Assembly (NCBI RefSeq): GCF_019399235.1
Contig: NZ_JAELVH010000051.1
Span: forward strand, 1 to 64,000
Direction of reading: 5' to 3'
DNA from: Streptomyces poriferorum
GTDB lineage: Bacteria; Actinomycetota; Actinomycetes; Streptomycetales; Streptomycetaceae
DNA length: 64,000 bases
Below, one piece after another: positions 23,987 to 40,947 of the stretch. Both the position numbers and the translations under genes were made by a program. Within the stretch, counting starts at the first letter, position 1, and each line of letters opens with the position of its first letter. The notes below the pieces were generated by a model that was not told where the DNA came from, made no database searches, and was given only the letters and a program-made list of their open reading frames with translations.

Positions 23987-24101
23987 GGCTCGGATTGTGC
24001 CAGCAGTTGTATGACGCGGTGACGTTTTGCCGCAGATCGCTCAAACTCTGAAATTTCGGTGTTGCCCGTCCGCCTCTCAGGCGGCCGCAGAAGGGGGAGA
24101 C

Positions 24102-25115
24102 ATGGCGAAGACCGCGCTCATCACCGGGGTGACCGGACAGGACGGTTCGTACCTGTCCGAGCTGCTGCTCCAGAAGGGATACACGGTCCACGGGCTCATC
24201 CGCCGCTCGTCGAGTTTCAACACCGAGCGGATCGACCACATCTACCAGGGGCCGGAGGAGGAGAACCGCTCGTTCGTGCTGCACCACGCCGATCTCGCCG
24301 ACGGGGTCGCCCTGGTGAACCTGCTGCGCGACATCCGCCCCGACGAGGTCTACAACCTCGGCGCGCAGTCGCACGTCCGGGTCTCCTTCGACGCCCCGTT
24401 GTACACGGGTGACGTCACCGGTCTCGGAACGATCCGGCTGCTGGAGGCCGTGCGGGCCAGCGGCATCGACACCCGGGTCTACCAGGCGTCGTCCTCGGAG
24501 ATGTTCGGCGCCAATCCGCCGCCGCAGAACGAGCAGACCCCCTTCCATCCGCGCAGCCCGTACAGCGTGGCCAAGGTGTACTCGTACTGGGCGACCGTCA
24601 ACTACCGCGAGGCGTACGGGATGTTCGCGGTCAACGGCATCCTGTTCAACCACGAGTCGCCGCGTCGCGGGGAGACCTTCGTGACCCGGAAGATCACTCG
24701 TGGCGTGGCCCGGATCAAGGCGGGACTGCAGACGCATCTGCATCTGGGCAATCTGGACGCCGTACGTGACTGGGGGTACGCCCCCGAGTACGTCGACGCG
24801 ATGTGGCGGATGCTGCAGTGCGAGACCCCGGACGACTACGTGGTGGCGACCGGCGAGGGTGTCAGCGTCCGGCAGTTCCTGGAGTACGCCTTCGAGCACG
24901 CCGGTCTCGACTGGCGCGAGCACGTCCGCTACGACGCGAAGTACGAGCGCCCCAGTGAGGTCGACGCGCTGATCGGGGACGCGTCCAAGGCCGCGGAGCT
25001 GCTGGGCTGGAAACCTGCCGTGAAGGCGCAGGAGCTGGCCCGGATCATGGTCGACGCCGATGTCCGGCAGCTGGCCGATCAGCTCACCGGAGCAGCCGTG
25101 CGGGTGGACCGATGA
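24102..25115 (+). CDS. gmd: GDP-mannose 4,6-dehydratase
   Basis: Converts GDP-mannose to GDP-4-keto-6-deoxymannose, the first step to GDP-L-fucose. 337 residues: [19 protein letters not shown] (NADP fold), [45 protein letters not shown] (catalytic Tyr and Lys), [22 protein letters not shown], then the C-terminal substrate domain. The ATG at 24102 follows AGGGGGAG. Its last four bases overlap the start of the secreted propeller protein gene (ATGA), and four further genes follow with similar overlaps, so it heads a tightly coupled operon. Confidence 0.96.
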
Positions 25116-27901
25116 GATATCCCGGACGTCTCAGACGCAGCCGCAGCGGTGTGTTCGCCGCTGTCCTCGCCCTCACGGGCGGGGTCCTGACCGCTTCCGC
25201 GGTGACCGCTCCCCCGGCTGCCGCGCTCACCGATCCGGTCGGCTTCACCGCCGACCACCTCGCCACGTACCAGACGAACGGCATCGTCTGGTCGCTCGCC
25301 GAGGCGAACGGGGTCGTCTACGCGGGCGGCACCTTCACCAACGTCCGCCCGGCCGGCTCCCCCGCAGGCAGCAACACCACGTCCGCCGTCAACTTCGCCG
25401 CGTTCAACGCGGCCACCGGGGCGCCCACCGGCTGCCCGCTGTCCTTCACCCGCTCCAGCGGCACCGCGACGGTACGGGCGCTCGCGGTCTCCCCCGACAA
25501 GTCGACGCTGTACGTGGGTGGCTACTTCAACGCGGTCAACGGGACGGCCGCCAACGGTCTGGTCGCCGTCAACACCGCCACCTGCACGCTGCGTCCCGGC
25601 TTCACTCCGGACTTCGGGGCGACCGTGCGGGCGCTCGACGTGGCCGCGAACGGCACGGTCTACGCGGGCGGCGACTTCCAGAGCGTCAACGGGCAGACCC
25701 GCCGCTTCTTCGGCGCGGTCACGGCCGCCGGTGCGCTGACGGCCTGGAACCCGGACGCGGATGATCCCGGACGGACGCTGAAGGTCACTCCGGACGGGCA
25801 GAGCGTGCTCATCGGCGGGGACTTCTTCACGGTGGGCGGGTCGAACTCGCACGCGCTCGCGGTGACCGCCGCCGGCACCGGGGCGCTGACCCGCGCCTAC
25901 CCCGGCAACTTCATCCCGTCGTCCGCCGTGATCAAGGACATCGTCACGGACTCCTTGTCCGGCGGCTGGTACGTGGGTGGCGAAGGGGCCGGAGGCGCCT
26001 CGTTCGACGGCCGGCTCGCGATGGACCTCACCACGTTCGACCAGCGCTGGCGTGACACCTGCCAGGGCGCCACGCAGGCACTGCGGGTCTACCGGGGGGT
26101 GCTGTACGCGGGCAGCCACGTCCACGACTGCTCCACCATGGGCGGCTTCCCCAACCAGGTCCGCAAGCACCTGACCGCACAGGCCGTCGACGATCCGGCG
26201 ATGCTCGGCTGGCTGCCGGACACCAACGACGGCATCGGTGAACCGGTGGGCCCGCGCGCGCTGACCGTCTCGTCCCGCGGCGGTCACGACTTCCTGTGGG
26301 TCGGCGGCGAGTTCACCACGGTCAACGGGGTAGCCCAGCAGGCCCTGACCCGCTTCGCGGACTCGCCGGACACGGGGGCGCCGTCCGCACCCGTGGTCAG
26401 CCTCTCCGCGCCGCGGGCCGGTGAGGTCCGGGTGACCTGGCGTTCGAGCCTGGACCTGGACGACAGCCGGCTCACCTACCGGGTGTACCGCGACGGCGGC
26501 TCGACGCCGGTCCACACGACGACGGGTTCCTCGCTCTTCTTCAGCCGGCCGCAGCTGACCTTCACCGACACGAACGTGGTGGCGGGCCGCAGCTACTCCT
26601 ACCGGATCACCGCGAGCGACGGCACCAACACCAGCACGCTCTCCGCCAACGCCTCGGTCACCGCGACCGGTTCGGCGAGTCCGTACGCGGAGCGCGTGCT
26701 CGCCGACGGGACGGACCTGTACTGGCGCTACGACGAGGCGGGCGGCGCCTTCGCCTCGGACGCCTCGGACAACGGCGACGGCGGGGTGTACATGAACACC
26801 CCTTCGTACCGTTCGACTCCGTCCGCCGTGACCGGCTCCTCGGCGCTCACCCTCAACGGCACCGACGAGTACGTCTACAGCGACCGGCTGCATCACTACA
26901 CCTCACCCACCCCGTACTCCATCGAGACGTGGTTCCGTACGAGCACGACCCGCGGCGGGCGCCTCGTCGGGTACGGCAGCAACATCGGCACCGCTCAGGG
27001 GCACACCAGCGGGATCTCCGACAAGATCCTGTACCTCACCGACAACGGGCGTCTCGCCTTCGGGGTGCAGGTCGGCAGCTCCGGCAGCCGCCCGACGATC
27101 ACCTCCGCCGCGTCCTACAACGACAACACCTGGCACCACGCGGTCGCCACCCAGGGCCCGTCCGGCATGCGGCTCTACGTGGACGGGGCGCAGGCCGGCA
27201 GCAACGCCACCACCGGCAACCGCTCGTACAACGGGTACTGGCGGGTCGGCGGTGACGCCATGGCCACCGCCTGGCCCAACCGTCCGACCAGCACCTACTT
27301 CGCGGGGCAGGTCGACGAGACGGCCATCTACCCCTCCGCGCTGACCGCCGCCCAGGTGGCCGCGCACCACGAGCTGGCGGACACCCCGTCCGGTCCCGGG
27401 GACACCACGCTCACGCTGACGCCGACGGAGGACGCGTACGTCAACGGGGTCGCCGCGAACACCACGTACAACGACACCCAGCTCGCCTCCCGGGGCACCA
27501 CGCCGTACCTCGGCTACCTCCGCTTCGCCCTGCCCGCCGCCCCGGCCGGGCAGCAGCTCAGGAGCGCCCGGCTCACCTTCCGTACCTCGTCCGACGCCAC
27601 GGCGGGCTCGGCCGAACCCCACACACTCGTGCCGGTCACCGGCGCGTGGACCGAGTCGGCGGTCACCTACAACACCCGCCCGTCACTTGCCACGACGGTG
27701 CTGGGGACGATCTCCGGCGCAACCGCCGTCTCCACCGACTACTCGGTGGAGCTGAACGCGCCGGTACTGGGCGGGGCCCTGGGCTCCGCCTACTCATTCG
27801 CTCTGACCAGCAGCGGGACGGACAGTCTCCGTATCTGGTCCGGCGAAGTCGCAACCGCGGCCTACCGGCCGCAGCTCGTTCTCACCTTCGGAGCTGAATG
27901 A
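25112..27901 (+). CDS. Large secreted protein: propeller-like repeats, FnIII, LamG, DNRLRE-type domain
   Basis: 929 residues, exported. A signal peptide ([24 protein letters not shown], cut near residue 34) is followed by blades of a beta-propeller with recurring VYAGGTF, LYVGGYF, VYAGGDF and VLIGGDF strands (about 40-420), a fibronectin type III domain (about 425-520), a LamG/concanavalin-like domain (about 525-755, [20 protein letters not shown]) and a C-terminal DNRLRE-like beta domain (about 760-929). It is a close tandem paralogue of the next gene, which lacks the last domain. Start and stop overlap the neighbours by 4 bases on both sides. A surface role in binding or arranging the fucose-containing polymer is inferred from context. 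Confidence 0.85.
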
Positions 27902-30153
27902 TGAACGAAAGTACGGGGCGCGGACGCGGCGCCCACGGCCGCGCGCGTGCCGCGGCCGCCGCGCTCTGCCTGCTCGCCGGGGCCCTGAGCGCCGCCGCCG
28001 GGGGTTCCCCGGCGGCGGCCCTCGCCCCACCGGTCTCGATCACGGCGGACGACCTGACCACGTGGCAGACCAACGGCATCGTGTGGTCGATGGCCGCCTC
28101 CGCCGACGGGGTGGTCTACGCGGGCGGCACCTTCTCCACCGTGAGGCCGCCGGACGCGGCTGCCGGTACCTCCGAGCAGCCGGCGGTGAACTTCGCCGCG
28201 TTCGACGCCGCGAGCGGGGCGCCGACGGGCTGCAGCCTGTCGTTCACCCTCTCGTCCGGGACGGCGACCGTACGGTCCCTCGTCCTGTCGCCGGACGGTG
28301 ACACCCTTTACGCGGGCGGTCAGTTCGGCGCGGTCAACGGGGTCGGGGTCAGCAACATCGCGGCCATCGACACGGCCACGTGCACCCCGCGCGAGAACTT
28401 CAAGGTCGCCGTGTCCGCGACCGTGCGGGCGCTCGCCGTCACGGATGACACCGTCTATCTCGGCGGCGACTTCAACAGTGTCGCGGGGCAGACGCGCAAC
28501 AAGTTCGCGGCCGTGACCACCGGCGCCCAGCTCAAGCCGTTCACCGCGAACACGGACGAGGTGGGCCGGGCCGTGGAGGTCACCCCCGACGGCTCGCACG
28601 TGGTGATCGGCGGGGACTTCTTCACCGTCAACGGGACGAACTCGCATGCGCTGGCCGTGGTGGACGCGACGACGGGCGCCCTGGACAAGAGCTATCCGGG
28701 ATTCATTCCGAACACCTCGACGGTGCAGGACCTGACGTCGGACGCCACCCAGTTCTACACCGCCAACGAAGGCACCGGGGGCGGTGTCTTCGACGGCCGG
28801 ATCGCCCTCGACCTGGCCACGTTCTCCCAGGTCTGGCGCGACACGTGCCTGGGCGCCACGCAGGCGCTGCTGGTGCACAACGGGGTGCTGTACAGCGGCA
28901 GTCACGCGCACGACTGCGCGTCCATGGGCGAGTTCCCCGACCAGCCGCGCAAGCACCTGCTGGCGCAGGCGGTCGACGACCCGAAGCTGCTGCCGTGGTT
29001 CCCGGACACCAATGACGGGATCGGGGAGCCCGTCGGTCCGCGGGTGATGGCGCAGACGGACAAGGGTGGCCGTCACTATCTGTGGGTGGGCGGCGAGTTC
29101 ACCACGGTCAACGGCTCGGCGCAGCAGGGCCTGACCCGGTTCGCCGACGGCCCCGACACGGGGGCGCCGTGGGTGCCCAACGCCAGTGTCTCCACGGTCC
29201 GCCCGGGCGAGGTGGACGTGAACTGGCAGACCAGTTTCGACACCGACGACGGGGAGCTGACGTACCGGATCTACAAGGACGGCGCGAGCACCCCTGTGCA
29301 CACCATCACGGGCTTCTCCGTGTTCTGGGACCGTCCTCAACTCACGTGGACGGACCGGGACGTGGCACCGGGTGAGACGCACACCTACCGGATCAGCGCG
29401 AGCGACGGCACCAACACCAGCGCCAAGTCGCCCGCGGTGACGGCGGTGGTGGCGTCCGAGGCGGAGGCATATCCCGCCCGGGTGATCGCCGACGGGGCTT
29501 CGCTGTACTGGCGTTACGACGAGGGGACTTCGACGTTCGCCGCCGACGCCTCGGGCAATCTGAACAACGGCTTCCTGCGCAACGCGCCGTCCTATCGCCA
29601 GACTCCGGCGGCGGTCTCCGGTCCGTCGACCGCCATCGGCTTCAACGGCACGGACGAGTACGCCTACGGCAACAGGCCGAGCAGCTCGCCCTCCACCTTC
29701 TCGGTGGAGACATGGGTCAAGACCACGACCACCCGGGGAGGAAACATCCTCGGCTTCGGCAATCTGACCATGGAGGACAGCGGCCAGCACGACAAACACG
29801 TCTACATGCGCAATGACGGACGTCTGGTGTTCGGGGTCTACAGCGGCGGCTACCGGGCGGTGGCCACGTCCGCCGCGTACAACGACGGGGCCTGGCACCA
29901 TGTGGTGGCCACCCAGGGCTCCGGGGGCGTGGCGCTGTACGTCGACGGACAGCTCCGCGCCACCAACCCGCTGTACACCGGCAACAGGAACTACCGGGGC
30001 TACTGGCGGGTCGGCGGGGACAATCTGTCCGGCTGGCCGAGCCGTCCGACGAGCAACTTCTTCGCCGGGCAGGTCGACGAGACGGCGGTCTACCCGACCG
30101 TGCTGAGCAGCTCGAAGGTCACTGCCCACTACGCACTGAGGACGGGTGGATGA
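27898..30153 (+). CDS. Secreted propeller/FnIII/LamG protein, paralogue of the upstream gene
   Basis: 751 residues (from ATG 27898; ATG 27901 also possible). Signal peptide ending near AAALAPP, propeller-like repeats (VYAGGTF, LYAGGQF, VYLGGDF, VVIGGDF), an FnIII domain (about 410-510) and a LamG domain (about 515-750, WHHVVATQGSGGVALYVDG). It shares the same opening pattern as the previous gene (TNGIVWSM versus TNGIVWSL), so the pair arose by tandem duplication, and this copy lacks the DNRLRE-type tail. The start overlaps the previous stop (ATGATGA), and its own end overlaps the lipoprotein start. Ligand unknown. Confidence 0.85.
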   Translation: MMNESTGRGRGAHGRARAAAAALCLLAGALSAAAGGSPAAALAPPVSITADDLTTWQTNGIVWSMAASADGVVYAGGTFSTVRPPDAAAGTSEQPAVNFAAFDAASGAPTGCSLSFTLSSGTATVRSLVLSPDGDTLYAGGQFGAVNGVGVSNIAAIDTATCTPRENFKVAVSATVRALAVTDDTVYLGGDFNSVAGQTRNKFAAVTTGAQLKPFTANTDEVGRAVEVTPDGSHVVIGGDFFTVNGTNSHALAVVDATTGALDKSYPGFIPNTSTVQDLTSDATQFYTANEGTGGGVFDGRIALDLATFSQVWRDTCLGATQALLVHNGVLYSGSHAHDCASMGEFPDQPRKHLLAQAVDDPKLLPWFPDTNDGIGEPVGPRVMAQTDKGGRHYLWVGGEFTTVNGSAQQGLTRFADGPDTGAPWVPNASVSTVRPGEVDVNWQTSFDTDDGELTYRIYKDGASTPVHTITGFSVFWDRPQLTWTDRDVAPGETHTYRISASDGTNTSAKSPAVTAVVASEAEAYPARVIADGASLYWRYDEGTSTFAADASGNLNNGFLRNAPSYRQTPAAVSGPSTAIGFNGTDEYAYGNRPSSSPSTFSVETWVKTTTTRGGNILGFGNLTMEDSGQHDKHVYMRNDGRLVFGVYSGGYRAVATSAAYNDGAWHHVVATQGSGGVALYVDGQLRATNPLYTGNRNYRGYWRVGGDNLSGWPSRPTSNFFAGQVDETAVYPTVLSSSKVTAHYALRTGG

Positions 30154-30851
30154 GGTATCCGTTCCTGGCCGGCGCCGTCGTCGTCATGACGGCGGCGCTG
30201 GCCGCCTGCGGCTCGTCCTCCGACGACGGGGGTGGGCAGAAGCCGGCCGCAGCCGGCCCCGCGGCCTCGTCGGGGGCGGCATCATCGGGGCCCGAGGCCG
30301 GATCCGGGAGTCCTTCCGCCACGGATCCGAAGGCCTCCCCGACCAGCGAGCCACCGAAGGTCCCCGCCGCCGAACTCACGCCGGCCACCGGCACGTTCAC
30401 GAAGAAGCAGAAGGAGTACCTCGTAGACCGCGTCCCCAGGGGCATGGATCCCGCGGCCGTGCTCCAGACCGGGCAGGAGACCTGCGACCGGCTGACGTAT
30501 CTCGTCAAGGTGGACCGGGAAACGGCCGTCGGCGCCATCATCAGCGGTGAGATCACCGACGCGGAACCCGCCGTCGAGCACCTGTGCGTACAGCACGAGG
30601 AGCTGGTGGAGCGGGCCTCCGGGGGGTACGCCGACGGCACGCACGAGGGCAAGGCGCTCCGTGCGGGGCGCTACCGCGACGTCTCCCCCACCAAGGCCTG
30701 CAGTTGGCAGGTAACGGGGGCGAACGGCAAGAACCTCGTGTCGGGGTCCTCCGGTGACGGCAGGCGGACCGTGGTCACGATCCCGGAGGCGGCCCGCGCC
30801 TTCACCTCCACAGGCTGCTACGCCTGGCTGCCCGAAGGAGACAACGGATGA
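30150..30851 (+). CDS. Lipoprotein of unknown function
   Basis: 233 residues with a lipoprotein signal: MRYPFLAGAVVVMTAALAACGSS, lipobox Leu-Ala-Ala-Cys with Cys at residue 20. Next comes a 60-residue Ser/Ala/Pro/Gly linker, then a compact domain (about 75-225) with helical first half and a C-terminal beta portion (CSWQVTGANGKNL, then TVVTIPEAARAF), which resembles Streptomyces extracytoplasmic domains of unknown function. It overlaps the paralogue upstream and the glycosyltransferase downstream by 4 bases each, so it is co-translated with the gmd operon. Likely anchored on the outer face of the membrane. Confidence 0.82.
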   Translation: MRYPFLAGAVVVMTAALAACGSSSDDGGGQKPAAAGPAASSGAASSGPEAGSGSPSATDPKASPTSEPPKVPAAELTPATGTFTKKQKEYLVDRVPRGMDPAAVLQTGQETCDRLTYLVKVDRETAVGAIISGEITDAEPAVEHLCVQHEELVERASGGYADGTHEGKALRAGRYRDVSPTKACSWQVTGANGKNLVSGSSGDGRRTVVTIPEAARAFTSTGCYAWLPEGDNG

Positions 30852-31675
30852 GCAGACTGCCGATAGCCGTGGCGATCCCCACGAAGAACGAGGGGCTCAA
30901 CATCGCCGAGGCGGTGAAGTCGGTGCTCGGCCACTTCGAGGCGGTCGTCGTCGTCGACTCGCACAGCACCGACGACACGGCGAAGATCGCCGCGGAGTGC
31001 GGGGCCGAGGTCGTGATGTACACCTGGGACGGCGGGCACCCCAGGAAGAAGCAGTGGTGCCTGGACCATGTCCGCACGGACCTGGACTGGATCCTGCTGC
31101 TCGACGGCGACGAACGGCTGAGCCCGGGTCTGCTGGCCGAGCTGCGTCAGATCTTCGCCGATCCGGACGCGCCCCGGCCGGCCGCGTACGACATCCCGCT
31201 GGGGTACTGGTTCTCGGGCAAGAGGCTGCGGCACGGGTACACCATCCGCAAGCGTTCGCTGACCGATCGCACCCGCAGCCACTACCCGGAGGTGGGCGAT
31301 CTCGACGCGCCGGGCATCGGCGAGGTGGAGGGGCACTACCAGCCGGTCGCGGACAGCGCGGGATCCCTGCGCAACCCGATCGAGCACCAGGACCTCGATC
31401 CGGTGACCGCCTGGTTCGAGCGGCACAACAGGTACTCGGACTGGGAGGCGTGGCTGGAGCACCATCCCGACGTCAAGGAACAGGTGCGCCGCGTCAAGTC
31501 CCGGCAGGGGCAGCTGTTCCACAAGGCCCCGTTCAAACCGCTGGTGTCCTTCGCGTACATGTACGTGTACCGGCGGGGTTTCCTGGACGGGCGGGCGGGG
31601 CTCGACTTCGCCCTGGCGATGAGCTTCTACCGGTGGCAGATCGCTCTCAAGTCGCGGGAGAGTCCGTCTCCTTGA
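30848..31675 (+). CDS. Glycosyltransferase family 2
   Basis: A 275-residue inverting GT-A enzyme, similar to the WaaE/KdtX type that adds a sugar to lipid-linked chains. The start IAVAIPTKNEGLNIAEAVKSV is the nucleotide-binding strand, VVVVDSHSTDDT follows, and the metal-binding motif is LLLDGDERL near residues 82-90. A basic C-terminal part contains two amphipathic segments but no clear transmembrane helix. It is the last gene of the five-gene coupled operon starting at gmd. The donor sugar is not predictable; GDP-fucose is plausible by context. Confidence 0.88.
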   Translation: MSRLPIAVAIPTKNEGLNIAEAVKSVLGHFEAVVVVDSHSTDDTAKIAAECGAEVVMYTWDGGHPRKKQWCLDHVRTDLDWILLLDGDERLSPGLLAELRQIFADPDAPRPAAYDIPLGYWFSGKRLRHGYTIRKRSLTDRTRSHYPEVGDLDAPGIGEVEGHYQPVADSAGSLRNPIEHQDLDPVTAWFERHNRYSDWEAWLEHHPDVKEQVRRVKSRQGQLFHKAPFKPLVSFAYMYVYRRGFLDGRAGLDFALAMSFYRWQIALKSRESPSP

Positions 31676-31676
31676 C

Positions 31677-32840
31677 TCATCGGCGCTTCCGGCGGGCCAC
31701 CACGTCCTCGTAGGTCCGCCGGAGCGTCCGGGTCACGACGTCGATGGTGAAGTGTTCGTTCACCAGCTCCCAGGCGGCCTTCCCCGCTTCGGCGTTGGCC
31801 TCGGGCTCCAGCAGTTCCAGGACGGCCTGCGCGACCTTCTGCGCGTTGGCCCCGTCCTCACCCACCCGGCTGTCGATGACCCGGCCGGCTCCGGCCCGGG
31901 CCACGTCCGGGCCGAGGCCGCAGGTGCGCGTGACGACCACGGGGGTGCCGACGGACATCGCTTCGAGGACCGAGACGCCCAGCGGTTCCTCGATCGAGGG
32001 CAGGACGTACACATCGGCCTGCCGTCCGGCGGCCAGTACCTCTTCGTGGCCCAGGGGTCCGACATGGTCGAGCGAGTCCAGCACGCCCAGGCTGCCGGCC
32101 AGACGCAGGGTGCCGGGGAGTGCGCCGGTGTCGGGTCCTGCCAGGACGAACCGCGCGTCCGGGTGCTTCGCCAGGACCGCGGGCATCGCGGCCACGAAGT
32201 CCTCCGGGCGCTTGCGCTCCTGGATCCGGGCGAGGAAGAGCACGGTCGGCGGGCGGGCCGGATCGCGGGCGGGCTTGAACTCCTGCGGGCGCACGCCGTT
32301 GACCAGGCGCACGGTCCTGGTGAGCGGGACGGGGGCGGCCACCGCGTTCACATCGGCCCGTTCGACTTCGGTCAGATGGAGCACCGCGTCCGCGCCACGC
32401 AGGACCTTCCGTACGCCCAGCAGGTCCGTCAACTGCGCCACCCGCTTCTCGGTGGGGTCCACCATGCCGTGCGTCTGCACGACGAGCGGGGTCCGGGTGG
32501 CCAGCGCGAGGAGCGCGGCGGGCAGCGTCACCAGGTCGCGCATCAGATGGACGTGCACGAGGTCGGCGCCCCGCATCATGCGGTGCGCGGTCCGCAGAAG
32601 GGCTCCCGACGCGATGCCGCTGACCTCGAACATCGGCAGCACGTGGCGGGCCTGGAAGAGGTGGACGGGCACACCCTCCACCTCGCCGGGCAGGGGGCCG
32701 TCGAAGCCGTCGCCCAGGGCCATGATCCGGGCGTCGTCGCCCCCTGCCCGCTGGACCTTCGACAGGTTCAGGGCCACTCGGGTCGGACCGCCGAACGCGT
32801 GGTCCGGGGTGTGCAGTGTGACGATGTGCAGGATCTTCAC
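31677..32840 (-). CDS. Glycosyltransferase family 4
   Basis: A 387-residue retaining GT-B enzyme. Start KILHIVTLHTPDHAFGGPTRVALNL; middle VVQTHGM; the donor domain has TVLFLARIQERKRPEDFV, DVYVLPSIEEPLGVSVLEAMSVGTPVVVT, the E-x7-E type signature. GTG 32840 is preferred because GAGGGGAA lies 6-13 bases upstream. A frame running to 32873 adds an Arg-rich stretch without a ribosome site. It ends one base after the convergent GT2 stop. It belongs to the set of three glycosyltransferases in this locus. Confidence 0.9.
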   Translation of the reverse strand: MKILHIVTLHTPDHAFGGPTRVALNLSKVQRAGGDDARIMALGDGFDGPLPGEVEGVPVHLFQARHVLPMFEVSGIASGALLRTAHRMMRGADLVHVHLMRDLVTLPAALLALATRTPLVVQTHGMVDPTEKRVAQLTDLLGVRKVLRGADAVLHLTEVERADVNAVAAPVPLTRTVRLVNGVRPQEFKPARDPARPPTVLFLARIQERKRPEDFVAAMPAVLAKHPDARFVLAGPDTGALPGTLRLAGSLGVLDSLDHVGPLGHEEVLAAGRQADVYVLPSIEEPLGVSVLEAMSVGTPVVVTRTCGLGPDVARAGAGRVIDSRVGEDGANAQKVAQAVLELLEPEANAEAGKAAWELVNEHFTIDVVTRTLRRTYEDVVARRKRR

Positions 32841-32953
32841 CAGGGTTCCCCTCGACCTCGGCCGGCTGTTCACAGACTAGTCATCACATCACCTCAAGTG
32901 GGTTGATTCGCTAAGGTGTTCACAGGCGCGCAGGCTCACGGAACGGGGAGACG

Positions 32954-34468
32954 ATGACGTCCGTGCACCAGGCACCGCCGTCCGCCCCCGTCCGGGGGGA
33001 CGGCCCGCGCCATCCGGTCGAGCCGCCCGCCAGGCCGATGTCCTGGGCGATGCTCTCCCGGGCGATGGCCGTGCCACTCATCCTGGGGCTGGTCTGCTTC
33101 CTGCCGGCCCTGATCGCCGCCCAGCCCGGCACCGGATCCCGGGACACGGCGTACTGGCTGCAGCTCGTGCTGACGTGTTACGCCGGGGCCCGGCTCTCGA
33201 CCATGATCCTGTCCACCCGGCGGCGGCTGCTGCAGGGCGTCTTCTGGATGTTCGTGTACATCGCGATGGGGGTGGCGCCGTTCGCCCAGGCGGTCATCGG
33301 TCAGACGCCGACGCCGGTGGTCGGGCCGCGCTCCGATCTGGTCACGGCGATCGCCCTGATCCTGGTGGGGTGCGCCGCCTTCGACCTGGGGGCGCTGCTG
33401 GCATCCCGGCGTCCGCTGCGGCGGCGCACCACGGCTCGCGGGGGCGGCGGCCCGGCCACGGCGCATCCGGTCAGGCTGCGGCTGCTGGTGCTGCTCGCCT
33501 TCGCGGCGAGCGGCTACTACGTGCTGAAGCTCGGCGGGCCCGGCGTGTTCTTCTCCAGCAGGCAGGAGATCAGCGCCTCGGTGGCGGAGAGCGGCGTCGC
33601 GTCCGGGGAGTCCAATGTGGGCTCGGCGTTCCTGAAGGGCTTCGGCACGGTTCCGGCCCTGCTGGCGCTGCTCTTCTACACCCGCCGGCTGGTGACCTCG
33701 CGCCGGGCCCGGCGTTCGCCGTCCACCGTCCTCGTGTGGATCGCGCTGGCCGGGGTGAACCTGGTCGTGAACAACCCGATATCCAACGCCCGTTACTGGT
33801 TCCTGACCGTGCTGGTCTCGCTGCTGTTCACGGCGTTCCCGAGCAGCGCGGCGATGTACCGCTCGGTGCTGGCCATGGGGGTCGTCGGCGCCCTGGTGCT
33901 GTTCCCGTACGCGGACAGGTTCCGCTACGACGACTCCGGGTACCGCCCGGTCCAGTCGTCGTCGGTGTTCGAACCGCTGGCCACCAAGGACTACGACCAG
34001 ACGGTGATGTTCGCCAACACCATCTCGTGGGTCGACACCCGTGGCCACACGTACGGCCGCCAACTGGCGGGCTCCGCCTTCTTCTTCGTGCCCCGTGCGG
34101 TGTGGAGCGGGAAACCGGAGGACACCGGGGTGCGCGTCGGGCAGTGGATGGGGATGAACATGACGAATCTCTCCGCGCCGATGTGGACCGAGCTGTGGGT
34201 GGACTTCGGGGCACCGGGCCTGATCGGCGGGTTCGCCCTGATCGGTTACGCGACGGCGCGCACCGACCGCCGCTATGCGCGGGCGGTGTCGCGGGACGGT
34301 CCGGGGCCCGGCAGTGTCCTGGCCATCACGGCGCCACTGATCGCGGGATACACCTTCATCCTGCTGCGCGGTCCCCTGCTTCAAGCCGTCGGGAAGCTCG
34401 CCATCGCGGCGCTGTGCCTGGCACTGGTCACGAGTCTCACGGGCCGGAGCCGACGGCGGTCGCAGTGA
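32954..34468 (+). CDS. O-antigen/oligosaccharide repeat-unit polymerase-like membrane protein (Wzy type)
   Basis: 504 residues with about ten to twelve membrane helices and a long extracytoplasmic loop (about 315-400, containing FRYDDSGYRPVQSSSVFEPLATKDYD and ISWVDTRGHTYGRQL), a layout typical of Wzy polymerases and their distant relatives. Sequence motifs are weak in this family, so the call rests on topology and neighbourhood (flippase, Wzz-like protein, initiating transferase). The ATG at 32954 follows ACGGGGAGACG. Its last 32 bases overlap the convergent flippase gene. Confidence 0.72.
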   Translation: MTSVHQAPPSAPVRGDGPRHPVEPPARPMSWAMLSRAMAVPLILGLVCFLPALIAAQPGTGSRDTAYWLQLVLTCYAGARLSTMILSTRRRLLQGVFWMFVYIAMGVAPFAQAVIGQTPTPVVGPRSDLVTAIALILVGCAAFDLGALLASRRPLRRRTTARGGGGPATAHPVRLRLLVLLAFAASGYYVLKLGGPGVFFSSRQEISASVAESGVASGESNVGSAFLKGFGTVPALLALLFYTRRLVTSRRARRSPSTVLVWIALAGVNLVVNNPISNARYWFLTVLVSLLFTAFPSSAAMYRSVLAMGVVGALVLFPYADRFRYDDSGYRPVQSSSVFEPLATKDYDQTVMFANTISWVDTRGHTYGRQLAGSAFFFVPRAVWSGKPEDTGVRVGQWMGMNMTNLSAPMWTELWVDFGAPGLIGGFALIGYATARTDRRYARAVSRDGPGPGSVLAITAPLIAGYTFILLRGPLLQAVGKLAIAALCLALVTSLTGRSRRRSQ

Positions 34469-35684
34469 CGGGGGTGTGCCCGCGCTCGCCCCGTCGGGTG
34501 AGCCGGGCCACCCGGGTCCAGGTGGCGACCGCCTTGCAGACGGATCCCAGGCACAGGCCCCAGGCGGCGCCCATCACTCCGCCGGTCAGATAGCCGCCGG
34601 CGAGGAAGGCGACAGCGGCCAGGGAGAAGACCACCTGGATGGAGAGTGTGGTGCGCGGATCGAGCAGCCTGAGCGCCAGCAGTCCGCAGGTGCCGACGGC
34701 CATCGCCGCGTACTGGCTGCCGGTCGCCGGGAGCAGCGCCGCCGCCGTCGGCCAGGTATCGCCGAGCAGATGACGGCCGGCCGATCCGGGGAGCAGGGCG
34801 AGGACGGTGGCCCAGCCCGCGGCGGTGAGCGCCAGGAGGCCGGCCAGGGCCGCGGTGGCCCGCACCCTCAGCCGGTCGGTGGCGAGCCGCCCGAGGAGCG
34901 GGGGGCCGAAGCCGGTGGCCGAGGTGTACAGCACGTTCAGCGGGCCGAAGAGCGTGGTGGCGCCGCGCAGGGCGCCGACGACGAGGGGATTGCCGACGGC
35001 GCCGAGCCCGAGCACGGAGAGCTGGCTGGTCGCGTTGCCCACGCCGAACTCGACGACGAACCGGCGGCCCAGGTGCCCCTTCCCCAGCAGGGGCCTCAGC
35101 CGCACCGGGGTGCCCGCCGTCCTGCGGTGCAGTACGGCCGCGGACAGCAGGAGCGCGGGCAGGGCGCTCAGGCCCCAGACGATGACCAGCCGGGCCGCCG
35201 GGGTGCCGTGCGGCTGTACGGCCAGCGCGCCGAGGACGCAGACCAGCCGGAGCGTGTCGGAGGCCAGCGCCAGGTGCTGGGCCTGCAGTGTGGCGAATGC
35301 GTAGCGGGCCGTGTCCTGCGCGAGGACGACCGGCAGTACGAGTCCGAGCATCGCCGCGGCGCGTGCCGTCTCCCCCGGCAGCAGTGCGCAGACCGCGGCG
35401 AGCAGGCCGCCGGTGACGGCAGAGACGAGCAGGGTGAAGCCGACCGCCGACCGGCAGGCACCACGCGTCTCGTCGGTCGCCGCCCCCCTGCGCAGCACCA
35501 GGGGCTGTCCGGTGTAGGCGCCGGACACCCCCAGCAGTACGGAGAAGACGAGGTAGACGGCGGAGAAGCGAGCGAAGTCGGCGACGGTGGAGAGCCGGGC
35601 GGCCACCACCAGGACCAGGATGTTGGTGAGCGCCGCCACCCCCTGGTCCGCGACCGAGCAGACGACGGCGGTGCGTGCCCTCAT
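34437..35684 (-). CDS. Polysaccharide flippase (Wzx/MATE-like)
   Basis: 415 residues with about twelve membrane helices, of the polysaccharide-export family that moves lipid-linked repeat units to the outer face. The N-terminal helix reads VVCSVADQGVAALTNILVLVVAARLSTVADFARF, similar to Wzx proteins. The start overlaps the stop of the upstream Wzz/kinase-like gene by 4 bases (ATGA on the minus strand), so both are co-translated. The 3' end overlaps the convergent polymerase gene by 32 bases. Its partner is the Wzy-like protein next door. Confidence 0.82.
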   Translation of the reverse strand: MRARTAVVCSVADQGVAALTNILVLVVAARLSTVADFARFSAVYLVFSVLLGVSGAYTGQPLVLRRGAATDETRGACRSAVGFTLLVSAVTGGLLAAVCALLPGETARAAAMLGLVLPVVLAQDTARYAFATLQAQHLALASDTLRLVCVLGALAVQPHGTPAARLVIVWGLSALPALLLSAAVLHRRTAGTPVRLRPLLGKGHLGRRFVVEFGVGNATSQLSVLGLGAVGNPLVVGALRGATTLFGPLNVLYTSATGFGPPLLGRLATDRLRVRATAALAGLLALTAAGWATVLALLPGSAGRHLLGDTWPTAAALLPATGSQYAAMAVGTCGLLALRLLDPRTTLSIQVVFSLAAVAFLAGGYLTGGVMGAAWGLCLGSVCKAVATWTRVARLTRRGERGHTPVTATAVGSGP

Positions 35685-37432
35685 CTGCGTCCCGCGGTGC
35701 TGCTGTGGTCGCTGCCGCCGCGTCCGCCGCTGTCCAGCGTGCGCAGGCCGAGCGTCTGGGTGGGGTCGCCGGTGTGGGCGACGTCGTCCGCCCGGTCGGG
35801 GCCGTCCGTCTCCGCGTCGCCTTGGCCGTCGCGGCCGTCCGGGGGTGCGGGCCGGCTGCGGCCCCGGCGTTTGGCCGCCTTCCGGCGGGCCCGGCGCTCC
35901 AGGCGTCCGTAGCCGGGGTGGAGCAGGGTGCCGAGGACGGAGCCGCCCGCGGCGCCGATGATCTCGCGGATGCGCTCCAGGTCGCTGCGGTGCACCTCAC
36001 GCGGGTCGCAGACCACCACGACGCCCTCGACGCGGTCGATGAGGGCGACGGCGTCGGCGTACGAGAGCACGGGCGGCGCGAGCACGATGACGACCGCTCC
36101 CGGCCGTCCGCCCTCGGCGAGGATCCGGCTGACGGGCGCGGAGGTCAGGGCGCGCGGCACGTTGTCCGTACGGCGGCCGGCGATGAGCGTGAAGGCCCCC
36201 GATCCGGGCACGTCCACGTTGGTGCGGCTGTCCGAGGGCCAGCCGCGCCCGTCGCGTTCGGCTGCCCAGCTGGGCCGGCCGGCGCGTCCCACCGCGCCGA
36301 GCGCCCCGGCCAGGGACGGGGCCCTCAGATCGGCCTCGACGAGCAGGACGTCGCGCCCCATCTCGGCGAAGGCGGCCGCGAGGTTGGCCGCCGCGGCCGT
36401 CGCCATGTCGTTGTCGCCGCGGGGCGCCGTGACGAGGATCCGGCGGCGTTCGGTGAACGAGGGGTCGTAGGCGAGCCGGAAGGCCACCGCCCGGTACTCC
36501 TCGGCGAGTCTGCTGCCACCGCGTCCGATGGCGAGCAGTGGTCCGGCCGCGGCACGCTCCCTGGGCAGTGTGCCGAGCAGCGGGGCGCCGAGCGAGCGGA
36601 CGAGTTCCCTGGTGGAGCGTACGGCGGGGTCGAAGACGAGCCGTACCCAGGAAAGCAGCAGGCCGAGCGCGAGTCCGACGACGCCACCGAGCCCGAGAAG
36701 CAGCGGCAGCCCGGCACCGCTGGGCTTCTCGGGCGCGACGGGCTTCTTGTTGAGATAGCCGGGTGTGGTGTCCAGGGCCCGCAACTCCGAGATCTTCTGG
36801 CTCAGTTCGGAGATGGAGACGATGAGGTTGGCCCGCGCGCTGGTGACGTCGTTGCCCACCGTGCCGGTCTCCTGCTCGGCGAGTCTGTCGCGCTGTTCGG
36901 TGAGCGGCTTCAGCTGGGCGCGATAGCCGTCGACCATGTTGTCGATGCTGTTCTCGGTGCGTTCCCGCCGTATCTCCAGGTAGGCCTCGGCGAGTGCCTG
37001 GGCGCGGGCCTTCGCCTCTTCGGGGGTGCGGCCGGTGTAGGAGAACCTGAGGACGAGCGTGTTGGGCGGATTGGTGACCTGGAGCCCGGCCAGCAGCGTC
37101 CCCACGTCCACGGCGTCGCCGGTCTTGGTCAGTGAGCCGACGGCGACGGTGCCGACCGCGTCGCTGACCGCGGTCTGGCGCTCGGAGCCGATGTTGATGC
37201 CCTTGTCGGCCGAGGCGCCTGCGGCGAAGGGGTCGGACGTGGCGGAGCGTACGGACACCTCACCGGTGGAGGTGTAGGTGTCCTCGCCGCCCAGGGCCAG
37301 CCAGCCGGCGCCGAGCAGTCCGACGACGACACCGCACGCGAGCAGGGTGCGGTAGCGCAGGAGCTGGCGGAACTGGTCCCTCAGCAGCGCGGGTTCGTCC
37401 TGGTCCTCCAGGGCGCGGATCGGGTGGGTCAT
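35681..37432 (-). CDS. Polysaccharide co-polymerase: Wzz domain fused to BY-kinase-like domain with degenerate P-loop
   Basis: 583 residues. A Wzz-type domain with two membrane helices (about 30-50 and 248-270) flanks an extracytoplasmic coiled-coil region (about 150-235). The cytosolic part (about 290-500) has the fold of bacterial tyrosine kinases, but the phosphate loop reads APRGDNDMATAAAANLA, without the GKS/T of a Walker A; the A' motif is VLLVEADLRAP and the Walker B is VVIVLAPPVLS, lacking the usual Asp. The C-terminus is basic, then acidic, with no Tyr cluster. It likely sets chain length without kinase activity. It overlaps the flippase gene and the upstream glycosyltransferase by 4 bases. 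Confidence 0.88.
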   Translation of the reverse strand: MTHPIRALEDQDEPALLRDQFRQLLRYRTLLACGVVVGLLGAGWLALGGEDTYTSTGEVSVRSATSDPFAAGASADKGINIGSERQTAVSDAVGTVAVGSLTKTGDAVDVGTLLAGLQVTNPPNTLVLRFSYTGRTPEEAKARAQALAEAYLEIRRERTENSIDNMVDGYRAQLKPLTEQRDRLAEQETGTVGNDVTSARANLIVSISELSQKISELRALDTTPGYLNKKPVAPEKPSGAGLPLLLGLGGVVGLALGLLLSWVRLVFDPAVRSTRELVRSLGAPLLGTLPRERAAAGPLLAIGRGGSRLAEEYRAVAFRLAYDPSFTERRRILVTAPRGDNDMATAAAANLAAAFAEMGRDVLLVEADLRAPSLAGALGAVGRAGRPSWAAERDGRGWPSDSRTNVDVPGSGAFTLIAGRRTDNVPRALTSAPVSRILAEGGRPGAVVIVLAPPVLSYADAVALIDRVEGVVVVCDPREVHRSDLERIREIIGAAGGSVLGTLLHPGYGRLERRARRKAAKRRGRSRPAPPDGRDGQGDAETDGPDRADDVAHTGDPTQTLGLRTLDSGGRGGSDHSSTAGRR

Positions 37433-38691
37433 CGGCGGTCTCTCCCTTCGGCGTCCTGAAGGACCTCGGTGATCAGTGCGTCGAAGCGGGCAAGACCGGC
37501 TTCCCTGCCGAGATGGCGGGCCACGTACCGCGGCCCGTTGGAGCCGAGTTCGTCGGCGGCGGAGGGTTCCTCGACGAGTTTGCGGACCGCCGCGAGCACC
37601 GCGGCCGGGTCCTCCGGTGCGACGAGGAGTCCGGCGCCCGAGCGCTGCACCTCCTGGGCCGTGCCGCCCCCGTCGGCCACGGAGGCGACGACGGGGCGGC
37701 CCGAGACGAAGTACGAGGTGAGTTTGGAGGGCACGCTCATGTCGAGCACGGACGCGCGCTGGGTCACGGCGAGGACGTCGGCGGCGGCCAGGACGTCGGT
37801 GAACTCGTCCGCACCGGCCGGCGGCAGGAAGTCGAGGTTGGGCAGGCCGGACGCACGGGCCAGCAGGGCGTCGCGCTGATTGCCGTCCCCCATCAGGACG
37901 ATGCGTATCTCCGGAGCGAGCCGCGCCGCGTCGACGAGGACCTCCAGCCCCTGTTTCAGCCCCATGTTGCCGGAGTGCAGCACCACGGGCGTGCCCTCGC
38001 GCCAGCCGAGGCGGGCCCTGGTCCTGGCACGGTCCGCCGAAGGGGCCTGTACGTGGGTCCAGTTGGGAACCAGCCGGATGCGTTCCGGGGCCACTCCGTA
38101 GGCGGTGACCCGGGGGACGAAGCTCTCGTGGATGACTCCGACCAGCGTGGCGGCCCCCAGCGCGTAACGCTCGGCCCGTGACGCCAGGGCGGCTGCCCTG
38201 CCCCCGCCCCGGATGCCGCTCTGGGCTGCGGCGGCGCCCATCAGGTCCTGCACGACGGGTATGTACGGGATGCCGTGGCGGCGGGCCAGCCGGGCGCCGA
38301 TGACGCCGCCGGCCAGGCTGGGAAGCTGGGCGATCACCGCGTCGGGCCGCAGCGCGGGCGGGGCGGCGAGACCGTGCGCGAGCACGCTCGCTTCGAAGGC
38401 GGCTCTGCGCAGGGCGCTCTGACGGGGCGGCACATAGTGTCTTCGCCGGTGGACGGTGACACCCGCGCGCTGCTCATCGGTCCGCCACACCCCCCGGTAG
38501 GCCTCCTCCGTCCGCCAGGACGGGTAGTGCGGCATACCGGTCAGCACATGGGTGTCGGCCCCGGAACGGGCCCAGTGCTCGGCAAGCTGGGCGGCGTACG
38601 GACCGATGCCGGTGAGCTCGGGCGCGTAGTTCGTGGAGACCACCAGCAGACGGCGGCCGTCGAGCGGCTTGCGGTGCTCTTCTTCTGTCAT
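37429..38691 (-). CDS. Glycosyltransferase family 4 (WcaI/WbuB-like)
   Basis: 420 residues, GT-B fold. The start LLVVSTNYAPELTGIGPYAAQLAEHW and GMPHYPSWRTEEAYRG match the WcaI/WbuB group that adds sugars to colanic-type polymers. The donor half has VVLHSGNMGLKQGLEVLVDAA and the C-terminal SVPSKLTSYFVSGRPVVASV. ATG 38691 is used; a TTG start at 38733 in the same frame adds 14 residues. Its stop overlaps the start of the Wzz-like gene by 4 bases, so this gene, the co-polymerase and the flippase form a three-gene coupled operon. Confidence 0.9.
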   Translation of the reverse strand: MTEEEHRKPLDGRRLLVVSTNYAPELTGIGPYAAQLAEHWARSGADTHVLTGMPHYPSWRTEEAYRGVWRTDEQRAGVTVHRRRHYVPPRQSALRRAAFEASVLAHGLAAPPALRPDAVIAQLPSLAGGVIGARLARRHGIPYIPVVQDLMGAAAAQSGIRGGGRAAALASRAERYALGAATLVGVIHESFVPRVTAYGVAPERIRLVPNWTHVQAPSADRARTRARLGWREGTPVVLHSGNMGLKQGLEVLVDAARLAPEIRIVLMGDGNQRDALLARASGLPNLDFLPPAGADEFTDVLAAADVLAVTQRASVLDMSVPSKLTSYFVSGRPVVASVADGGGTAQEVQRSGAGLLVAPEDPAAVLAAVRKLVEEPSAADELGSNGPRYVARHLGREAGLARFDALITEVLQDAEGRDRR

Positions 38692-38905
38692 CGGACGATC
38701 GCCTTCCCCCCGGAGCCACCTGTGTTCCCCCAAGGAACAGCCCCAAAAGTGAGCTTATCCGTTCACGAGATGCGCAAGTGGTCTTCACAGTAAGGTCGTT
38801 GCACCATCAACACCGATACCGATATCCCACCGGACCGGATGCCATGTCCGGACACCAGCCGATGGGACACGGACATCACGTTCACACCGTGGGGGGAGAG
38901 AACGG

Positions 38906-39352
38906 ATGGTGCACAGGGTCGGCTACGCGCCGGGGGTCTACGACCTGTTCCACATAGGTCACCTCAACATCCTGCGGCATGCCCGCAGTCAGTGCGACTA
39001 CCTGGTGGCGGGGGTCGTCTCGGACGAGATGGCGGCGCTCGCCAAGGGGCACAAGCCGGTCATACCGCTGCCGGAACGGCTGGAGATCGTGCGGAGCGTG
39101 CGGTACGTGGACGCCGCCTTCGTCGAGACCGTCCCGGACAAGGTCGAGACCTGGCAACAGGTCAGGTTCGACGTCATCTTCAAGGGAGACGACTGGCGCG
39201 ACACGGAGAAGGGCAAAAGGCTGGAACGCGACTTCGCCGAGGTCGGTGTGGAGGTCGTCTACTTCCCGTACACCGTCCACACGTCCAGCACCCAGCTGCG
39301 CCGGGCGCTGGACACGCTCGTCAGTCTGCCCGGAGCGCTCTCAGCTCCCTGA
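38906..39352 (+). CDS. Cytidylyltransferase-like protein (TagD / glycerol-3-phosphate cytidylyltransferase family)
   Basis: 148 residues. GVYDLFHIGHLNIL carries the HxGH nucleotidyltransferase signature, then VIPLPERLEIV, KGDDWR, and HTSSTQLRR at the end, which is the family C-terminal motif. Relatives make CDP-glycerol, CDP-ethanolamine or similar alcohols. It is next to a CDP-alcohol phosphotransferase, so the two probably form a donor-making and donor-using pair. ATG 38906 follows GGGGGGAGAG. The 3' end overlaps the convergent phosphotransferase by 32 bases. The substrate is not determinable here. Confidence 0.86.
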   Translation: MVHRVGYAPGVYDLFHIGHLNILRHARSQCDYLVAGVVSDEMAALAKGHKPVIPLPERLEIVRSVRYVDAAFVETVPDKVETWQQVRFDVIFKGDDWRDTEKGKRLERDFAEVGVEVVYFPYTVHTSSTQLRRALDTLVSLPGALSAP

Positions 39353-40052
39353 ACCACTTGCCGAGGAACGCCACGAGGAACAGCGCGTGCACGGCGGCGA
39401 GTACGGCGTATCCGGTCCGGAACGCCGTCTCGTCGCCGAGCAGCAGGAACACCAGGCAGAACACGCCGTAGTCGGCCGGCAGCAGCGCTACCGCGCGCAG
39501 CCGGGAGACCGGCCCGGCCGGCGCTCCTCCGGAAGGCGCCGAACGGGCGGCGGACTTGCCCAGCTGCTCACGCAGCAGCCCGGCGCAGAACGTGAGCACC
39601 GCGACGAACAGGAAGCCGAGCGGCAGCAGCAGCCAGGCGTCGGAGCCGAGACCGAAGTAGCGGTGGAACGAGATCAGTACGGCGGTGTGGACGAGGATCA
39701 TCTTCGCGCAGTCGACGACATGGTCGAGCCATTCGCCGTCGGGGCCGCCGCGGCCGGTCAGCCGGGCGAGCTGGCCGTCGGCCGAGTCGAGGGCGAACCC
39801 CACGGCGAGCCCCAGGTAGACCAGGACCGCCGGCCCCCAGGCGGGGCGTGTCAGAGCCACCGCCGCAAGGGCGGAAAAGGTGAACGCCGCACTCAGCAGA
39901 GTGACCTGATTGGGTGTCATACCGATTCGGTACGCAGCCGCCGCGAAGACCCGGCCGGCCGGCCGGTTCACGTACCGGGAGTAGAGCGACACCCCCTTGG
40001 CCGACTTCTGTGCCCCGCGCAGTTCACGCAGCACCGTGCCCGTGCTTTCCAT
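39321..40052 (-). CDS. CDP-alcohol phosphatidyltransferase family membrane protein
   Basis: 243 residues with about six membrane helices. The catalytic motif is complete: DSADGQLARLTGRGGPDGEW followed by LDHVVD, i.e. D-x2-DG-x2-AR-x8-G-x3-D-x3-D (about residues 85-110). It transfers a phospho-alcohol from a CDP-linked donor to an acceptor alcohol. The ATG at 40052 has GGGGGG upstream; the longer frame to 40301 runs through a large palindrome and is not used. The neighbouring cytidylyltransferase suggests a dedicated phosphodiester decoration of a lipid or polymer; substrate unknown. Confidence 0.88.
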   Translation of the reverse strand: MESTGTVLRELRGAQKSAKGVSLYSRYVNRPAGRVFAAAAYRIGMTPNQVTLLSAAFTFSALAAVALTRPAWGPAVLVYLGLAVGFALDSADGQLARLTGRGGPDGEWLDHVVDCAKMILVHTAVLISFHRYFGLGSDAWLLLPLGFLFVAVLTFCAGLLREQLGKSAARSAPSGGAPAGPVSRLRAVALLPADYGVFCLVFLLLGDETAFRTGYAVLAAVHALFLVAFLGKWFRELRALRAD

Positions 40053-40107
40053 ACGCCCCCCAGCGTGTCGCGCCGATCCCACTGCCGCGGCGGCATCTCG
40101 GATACCC

Positions 40108-40169
40108 AGGGCCTTTCGTCTGGATCGTGCCGGGCCCGTGGGCCCGGCACGATCCAGACGAAAGGCCCT
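40108..40169. repeat. Long perfect inverted repeat (probable terminator), 30-bp arms
   Basis: Two 30-base arms are exactly complementary with only a 2-base centre (GT at 40138-40139). The left arm begins AGGGCCTTTCGTCTGGATCG and the right ends in the complement. It lies between the RNase HI gene and the phosphotransferase gene, both on the minus strand, starting 92 bases beyond the RNase HI stop. Similar GATCCAGACGAAAGGCCC hairpins occur near gene ends in Streptomyces in my recollection. Confidence 0.85.
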
Positions 40170-40260
40170 CGCCGCCGGAGCCGCATCATGGCACGCGTGC
40201 CCCCTCGCGGGGGCGGGATCTCCGGGACCCGGCCGGGAAGGGCGTCCAGCCGGATGCCCG

Positions 40261-40947
40261 TCAGGCGGTGGCGGTCCGGCACTCCGGGTGGCCCCAGCCA
40301 TGGTCGTTCTTGGCGATCATGTCCTTGGCCGCGTACGGCTTTCCGCAGTGGCACCGCCCGGAGAACTTGGCGCGGATGGTCGCTCCGGCCCGGGCCGCAC
40401 TCCCCGCCTTCTTCGTCGCGGCGCCGGTCCGCCTCCCTTCGGTGGCACGGGAGGGTGCGGGAACCGGCAGGTCCGCGGAGCCCTGCGAGGTGCCCGCCGC
40501 GCGCTGCGCGACGGCCACTTCGCTGGCGGCCTGGTCGGCCAGGGCGTTCAGCGGGTCACCGTCCACCTGGTGGGCCGGCACGTAGACGAACTCCACGGCC
40601 CGGCCGGTCAGCAGGGAGTCGATGCGGGCCACCAGGTCACGGTTGGCGACGGGCTTGCCGGCCGAGGTCTTCCAGCCGTTGCGCTTCCAGCCCGGCAGCC
40701 ACCTGGTCACGGCGTTCATCGCGTACTGCGAGTCCATCCGGACTTCGAGCGCGACGGCCGGGTCGAGTGACTCCAGCAGTTCCTGCAGGGCGGTGAGCTC
40801 GGCGACGTTGTTCGTGGCGGTGCCCAGCGGACCGGCCTCCCACCGCAGCGGCCTGCCCGCCGCGTCGGCCACCACATAGGCCCAGGCGGCCGGCCCCGGA
40901 TTACCCTTCGACGCCCCGTCACACGCGGCGATCATGCGCTCGTTCAT
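40261..40947 (-). CDS. rnhA: Ribonuclease HI with C-terminal zinc-ribbon-like tail
   Basis: Degrades RNA in RNA-DNA hybrids. The 228-residue protein has the RNase H fold from about residue 5 to 140: first Asp in CDGASKGNPGPAAW, Glu in NNVAELTAL, second Asp in RMDSQYAM, last Asp in DPLNALADQAA. A C-terminal extension ends in FSGRCHCGKPYAAKDMIA and WGHPECR, a cluster of three cysteines and three histidines that looks like a small zinc ribbon. The start is ATG 40947 (ATG 40959 also possible). It is followed by the long palindrome at 40108. Confidence 0.88.
   Translation of the reverse strand: MNERMIAACDGASKGNPGPAAWAYVVADAAGRPLRWEAGPLGTATNNVAELTALQELLESLDPAVALEVRMDSQYAMNAVTRWLPGWKRNGWKTSAGKPVANRDLVARIDSLLTGRAVEFVYVPAHQVDGDPLNALADQAASEVAVAQRAAGTSQGSADLPVPAPSRATEGRRTGAATKKAGSAARAGATIRAKFSGRCHCGKPYAAKDMIAKNDHGWGHPECRTATA

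Follow-up and report, generated by a model that had tools for sequence, protein, structure and literature searches.

The window analysed here, the first 64,000 nucleotides of contig NZ_JAELVH010000051.1 of Streptomyces poriferorum (assembly GCF_019399235.1), contains at positions 35681-37432 of its minus strand an open reading frame (ORF) of 583 amino acids, with an ATG start and an open frame throughout, which overlaps the genes on both sides by a four-base ATGA. A preliminary description of this DNA had placed here a co-polymerase resembling Wzz and the bacterial tyrosine kinases (BY-kinases), and had proposed that its kinase-like half keeps the overall fold, has lost the catalytic motifs and may serve as a structural regulator without phosphorylating activity. 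The limits of the ORF proved exact, and its assignment was supported by matches of both sequence and model to CapAB and Wzc. Here we describe this protein, its relatives and its gene neighbourhood, and weigh what the kinase-like domain may do.

Fold and motifs of the co-polymerase

In sequence searches residues ~265-505 of the co-polymerase matched CapAB and Wzc, and a profile built from 35 relatives matched 18 distinct solved sequences at E<=0.01; by profile search, part of the ectodomain matched PslE. The NCBIfam BY-kinase models scored well under their cut-offs (46.3 bits for TIGR01007, where 108.05 are required), and Pfam returned a sub-threshold match to CbiA alone. Residues R18, Q20, R26 and Y27 of the N-terminal region were invariant across the 35 sequences. 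The AlphaFold2 model (mean predicted local distance difference test score, pLDDT, 76.4; predicted template-modelling score, pTM, 0.53) consists of two long helices, an ectodomain and a cytoplasmic domain, and its top Foldseek matches were full-length Wzc chains. Alignment with CapB and Wzc had been suggested as a check in the preliminary description; using VIA-align, the kinase-like domain aligned with CapA1B1 (CapAB, 4jlv) at Z 24.9 and 2.3 Å over 213 residues, and the model aligned with Wzc chains at Z 21-24 (for 7ni2_A, Z 23.1 and 4.7 Å over 384 residues). According to the model, the protein has the Wzc-type layout of two membrane helices flanking a Wzz-type ectodomain, followed by a cytoplasmic BY-kinase fold, and the overall fold is kept as had been predicted.

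Table. Features of the co-polymerase and of the surrounding genes. PCP, polysaccharide co-polymerase; GT, glycosyltransferase. The last column gives the number of the 80 named loci (see text) with a match anywhere in the fetched stretch at E<=1e-10.
Feature	Position	Strand	Basis	Named loci
Wzz/BY-kinase-like co-polymerase, dead kinase domain (PCP-2-type BY pseudokinase)	35681-37432	-	ORF, family searches, model	
N-terminal helix and first transmembrane helix, residues 13-48	37289-37396	-	model helices H13-26 and H28-48; putative membrane span	
Extracytoplasmic Wzz-like domain, residues 50-238	36719-37285	-	model; alignment along Wzc octamer chains	
Second transmembrane helix, residues 242-267	36632-36709	-	model helix H242-267; putative membrane span	
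BY-kinase-fold domain, residues 268-507	35912-36631	-	structural alignment to 4jlv	
Erased Walker A loop TAPRGDNDMATAA, residues 335-347	36392-36430	-	alignments	
Retained Walker A', LLVEADLRAP, residues 363-372	36317-36346	-	alignment of named relatives	
Walker B strand without Asp, VVIVLAP, residues 447-453	36074-36094	-	alignment	
C-terminal tail without Tyr cluster, Arg/Lys-rich start	35684-35911	-	alignment; relaxed dN/dS	
Candidate Wzx flippase	34437-35684	-	position and membrane-protein sequence character; ATGA overlap with co-polymerase	77
GT4 (WcaI-like) glycosyltransferase	37429-38733	-	family search; ATGA overlap with co-polymerase	79
Candidate Wzy polymerase, multi-helix	32954-34468	+	weak family match in one member	75
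GT4-type glycosyltransferase	31677-32873	-	family search	75
GT2 glycosyltransferase	30848-31675	+	family search	42
Bac_transf sugar-phosphate transferase, probably initiating	21359-22903	+	family search	
NAD-dependent epimerase family, probable GDP-fucose synthase	23003-23986	-	family match; role suggested by neighbouring dehydratase	
GDP-mannose 4,6-dehydratase family	24027-25115	+	family match	
TagD/RfaE-like cytidylyltransferase	38906-39352	+	family searches	79
CDP-alcohol phosphotransferase	39321-40301	-	family searches	78
Two large proteins, LamG and weak beta-propeller-like matches (one also CBM96)	25112-27901, 27898-30153	+	family searches	70

We searched the co-polymerase against 150 genomes of the same genus, its own included, at E<=1e-10. 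Matches were found in 75, of which 61 carry the group with a dead kinase domain (39-96% identical to the window protein, itself aside); in the other 14, every matching sequence retains EGK[ST] in its loop. A named collection was formed by the best 80 of 191 relatives, the more distant ones lying outside this count; its loci belong to Actinacidiphila and to Streptomyces, where one carries the name [Kitasatospora] papulosa, include S. griseus and S. lavendulae, and extend from a 94% identical protein in Streptomyces sp. A0642 down to ~50% identity. The two sets share 14 proteins, and their union amounts to 127 distinct proteins over residues 61-480. For the motif comparisons we used a canonical set of 73 actinomycete sequences, chosen by having [EDA]GK[ST], and 16 representatives of the Streptomyces group, its most distant tier included.

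At the former P-loop the window protein reads APRGDNDMATAA (residues 336-347); in the alignment, 15 of 16 weakly matching loci of the genus (L062-L077) have a canonical loop here that finishes with EGK[ST]. The exception, L062, encodes another degenerate Wzz-like protein, distinct from the main group, in a genome (G121) that carries both. Walker A GK[ST] was absent from the P-loop in all 61 carriers of the genus, the source genome among them, and in 80 of 80 named relatives, and its loss by chance is therefore excluded; four GK[ST]-like strings in the named relatives sit near residues 521-530, in the tail and not at the P-loop. The Walker B aspartate, present in 72 of the 73 canonical sequences, was found in none of the 16 representatives, 61 carriers (the column of L050 being out of frame) or 80 named relatives, and the window protein has leucine at this position (451). 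There is no tyrosine in its last 60 residues. Beyond residue 505 the median number of tyrosines is 5 in the canonical set and 0 in the representatives, with a pair or cluster in 72/73 and 1/16 (L051), respectively; 75 of the 80 named relatives have none or one in the tail and five have two or more. The second arginine of EX2RX2R, an oligomer-interface motif, is alanine throughout the carriers (61/61), named relatives (80/80) and representatives (16/16), versus arginine in 71 of the 73 canonical sequences.

The Walker A' motif is kept, as VEADLR-P in the window protein. E366, R370 and P372 occur in all 80 named relatives and D368 in 78, while the 16 representatives have Glu or Asp at 366 in every case, D368 in 13 and R370 in 12. 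Since Glu at 366 is also found in 30 of the 73 canonical sequences, we rejected the idea that the change from Asp to Glu reflects decay. Two other candidate marks were discarded: Met343 as a natural copy of the Lys-to-Met mutant of Wzc, as the register hangs on a one-residue gap and Met occupies this position in just 8 of 80 named relatives, and a basic C-terminal tail like that of EcpK, as the first 40 residues of the tail have a net charge (median 3.5) no different from that of canonical kinases (median 3). The preliminary description was thus right about Walker A, Walker B and the tyrosine tail, and had overlooked the retention of Walker A' and the loss of the second EX2RX2R arginine. With a BY-kinase fold and no Walker A, Walker B or tyrosine tail, the co-polymerase is, by motifs and model, a BY pseudokinase.

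Selection and ancestry

The ratio of nonsynonymous to synonymous substitutions (dN/dS) was calculated for six pairs by the Nei-Gojobori method; guanine plus cytosine makes up ~0.9 of third positions, so that dS is rough. In five pairs of 75-94% identity the kinase-like half gave 0.076-0.206 and the ectodomain 0.073-0.339, with 0.53-0.75 in the tail; in the sixth (L116, ~55% identity) the values were 0.48, 0.64 and 0.94, respectively. The dead kinase domain is maintained under purifying selection, and the tail is much less constrained. Together with the open frame, this rules out a pseudogene or frameshift in the window gene. In two of the 61 carriers the gene is interrupted in the assembly, L047 being split into two frames or pieces and L050 having a frame jump. 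In one named relative (L112:10001-12910) the frame of the co-polymerase extends to 970 codons, into the neighbouring gene, through either fusion or sequencing error.

A class-wide search returned matches in 70 of 118 genomes. Unrooted trees were built without the motif columns, a quick tree of 113 rows and a careful tree of 63; both omit L062, L198, L246 and L252 (L178 has no alignment row), and the careful tree was thinned further by 15 rows, most of them on long branches, and then by alternate canonical rows. In both trees the 16 representatives form one clade (support 100/99 in the careful tree), and the canonical Streptomyces kinases are placed elsewhere. None of the 16 weakly matching loci L062-L077 (~7 kb on each side) matched any of nine cluster genes, the co-polymerase query included, at E<=1e-10. 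Sister to the Streptomyces clade (99/95) is L169, from an actinomycete of another family, although its branch is long (1.3) and its exact placement less sure. L169 has a GEGRSS loop, in which Arg replaces the Walker Lys; its Walker B Asp is kept, and its last 60 residues contain no Tyr. Its locus (L255) encodes homologues of both large secreted-type proteins found in the window cluster, the other queried cluster genes, the co-polymerase itself aside, being unmatched at E<=1e-4. This suggests a series from an intact kinase through a K-to-R relative to a fully dead domain.

Further Wzz/BY-kinase-like proteins with erased P-loops occur in other actinomycete families, and L171, L173 and L181 together with L189, L196 and L205 form a separate supported group of this kind (99/96). 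Repeated loss of the kinase among the erased groups was considered and is unsupported, the unrooted tree being compatible with one common loss. The careful tree needs three changes between Lys and other residues, forced by its starred branches, and two of these fall in rows L250 and L248, isolated K-to-R cases within canonical clades.

The surrounding gene cluster

The co-polymerase is surrounded by a conserved cluster, probably of the Wzx/Wzy type, in which the flippase and polymerase are candidates only, weakly identified: the sugar-phosphate transferase and glycosyltransferases are clear, and the other two are named from position, sequence character and one weak match. The candidate Wzx had a Pfam match in none of 21 members, and a PDB profile match to it was dismissed as chance (E 0.63). 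One of 25 candidate-Wzy members matched O-ag_pol_Wzy (E 0.002), the window's own protein being unmatched, and the model of the candidate Wzy, which is poor (pLDDT 59.5), gave no Foldseek match in the PDB at E<=0.001; in a few named loci the Wzy match lies at another place or on another strand. The most distant tier of the group (L048, L049 and L051-L061) has the candidate Wzy and the CDP-alcohol transferase in 13 of 13 loci and the candidate Wzx in none of the 13.

The Bac_transf gene is the only one recognised in the genome at E<=1e-5; it was seen in 2 of the 80 named loci, its position being beyond the 10-kb flank of most. The GDP-mannose dehydratase and the epimerase would point to a fucose-type sugar, and the cytidylyltransferase and CDP-alcohol phosphotransferase suggest that the polymer receives a phospho-alditol or lipid-linked modification.

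Function and relation to known systems

Because the catalytic parts are lost in all close relatives examined, the co-polymerase is probably a scaffold and not a kinase. We consider it to be a fused, phosphorylation-independent PCP-2 co-polymerase whose pseudokinase domain serves as a scaffold, with a probability of roughly 0.7. It would serve the Wzx/Wzy-type surface-polysaccharide pathway of Streptomyces and control chain length, its ectodomain and two membrane helices presumably oligomerising as in Wzc and Wzz. The kinase-fold domain would no longer productively bind ATP or phosphorylate tyrosine, and may be kept as a structural or docking ring, stabilising the assembly and making contact with partners. 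Chain growth would then be controlled without the cycle of assembly and disassembly by tyrosine phosphorylation of Wzc and CapAB; having neither kinase nor tail, the co-polymerase could not cycle as Wzc does. The simplest inference is that assembly is controlled by partners or ligands, by analogy with the partner binding proposed for EcpK and HfsB. The structural regulator of the preliminary description is thus favoured, as judged from sequence, by the disappearance of the motifs in every carrier examined, the purifying selection and the probable Wzx/Wzy-type setting, and it fits both the lack of any kinase above the family cut-off in the source genome and the precedent of EcpK as described in PMC12004946.

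Several observations weigh against this interpretation. Walker A' is near-invariant in the 80 named relatives, and a pure scaffold has no obvious need of it. With the second arginine of the EX2RX2R interface motif lost, the octameric ring may differ from that of Wzc. L051, a member of the dead-kinase group, has an erased P-loop yet three closely spaced tyrosines in its tail. Finally, the identities of the Wzx and Wzy candidates are weak.

In a rival reading, the residues that replaced the Walker motifs form a new ligand or sensor site, which would gate this Gram-positive co-polymerase instead of tyrosine phosphorylation. The residues proposed for such a pocket are P337-R338 in the old loop, E366, D368 and R370 in Walker A', W398-P399 and Y458-D460. 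All of these but D368 are invariant in 80/80 named relatives although identity drops to ~50%, and in a gap-free alignment of the more distant tier R338 lies five residues ahead of the former Walker lysine, where MinD-type loops have their 'signature' lysine. The 16 representatives, however, keep the set only partly (at 338, 12 have Arg and 2 Lys; at 366, 11 have Glu and 5 Asp; at 368, 13 have Asp; at 458, 9 have Tyr and 7 His; at 398, 11 have Trp; at 399, 15 have Pro), and Glu or Asp at 366 and D460 are common to canonical kinases and therefore not new. We regard a re-purposed pocket as unlikely. Retention of Walker A' and of the fold in the model would also be expected if the domain were still active, as a kinase or an ATPase whose nucleotide site is unconventional, but the domain offers no conserved loop lysine, Walker B aspartate or tyrosine cluster, which makes residual activity very improbable.

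Phosphorylation might instead be supplied in trans by an active BY-kinase from another locus of the genome. One of the 61 carriers (G105) does have a canonical BY-kinase, L063, and the genus search, which used this protein as query, may miss others. In the source genome, however, none of eight loose TIGR01007 matches exceeded the family cut-off; the best was the co-polymerase itself, and the next four (L160-L163, of the seven others) carry [KS]GG[VT]GK loops of the ParA/Mrp/ArsA type. The cut-off was exceeded in 6 of 101 genomes of the genus, none of which is a carrier of the dead-kinase group, and we think a partner kinase of this kind highly unlikely. We give still less credence to the kinase-like domain being a decaying remnant without function: the missing catalytic motifs, the relaxed tail and the two broken carriers would agree with decay, but selection constrains the kinase-like half no less than the ectodomain, and some of its positions do not vary in any of the 80 named relatives. 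A scaffolding pseudokinase remains our preferred interpretation.

Proteins of this kind are known. According to PMC12004946, EcpK of Myxococcus xanthus and HfsB of Caulobacter crescentus are BY pseudokinases that act independently of phosphorylation in the Wzx/Wzy pathway. By that description they resemble the Streptomyces co-polymerase in being BY-kinase-like and in missing the catalytic residues and tyrosine tail. They differ from it in being stand-alone partners of a kinase-less PCP, whereas in the Streptomyces protein pseudokinase and PCP form one chain; EcpK, moreover, is reported there to have lost Walker A' too, which is kept here. Both are from Gram-negative bacteria, unlike the present protein of Gram-positive actinomycetes. 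Fused PCP-2 pseudokinase variants are cited in the same paper (after Cuthbertson et al.) from proteobacteria, for example SMc01795 of Sinorhizobium and VV1_2305 of Vibrio vulnificus; as described, these likewise combine a transmembrane/ectodomain part and a BY pseudokinase in one chain, and it is in being proteobacterial that they differ. Within Streptomyces, Ste8 of the Ebosin cluster of Streptomyces sp. 139 is described in PMC8902715 as a Wzz chain-length determinant in an exopolysaccharide cluster, and the word 'tyrosine' is absent from the main text of that paper. A literature search of titles and abstracts, which extended to cell-wall glycopolymers and Ebosin and did not reach subscription papers such as the 2003 Ebosin paper and that of Cuthbertson et al., found no Streptomyces BY pseudokinase described. 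As far as this search reaches, the fused, Walker-A'-retaining, Gram-positive form is new.

By its model, the co-polymerase shares architecture and fold with Wzc of E. coli (PCP-2a) and CapAB of S. aureus (PCP-2b), which, unlike it, have Walker A, Walker B and a tyrosine tail and cycle by autophosphorylation, as outlined in PMC12004946. In Wzc, phosphorylation of the tail is reported to drive a cycle between octamer and free form (PMC8285477, PMC11986026), and the Walker A mutant WzcK540M is described as non-phosphorylated, homogeneous and octameric (PMC8285477). Present models treat cycling of tyrosine phosphorylation as the motor of PCP-2 function. The dead-kinase clade, carried by 61 of 150 sampled Streptomyces genomes (about four in ten), offers a clean natural test of what a kinase fold does without phosphorylating, and extends BY pseudokinases from the Gram-negative cases presented in PMC12004946 to the Gram-positive actinomycetes.

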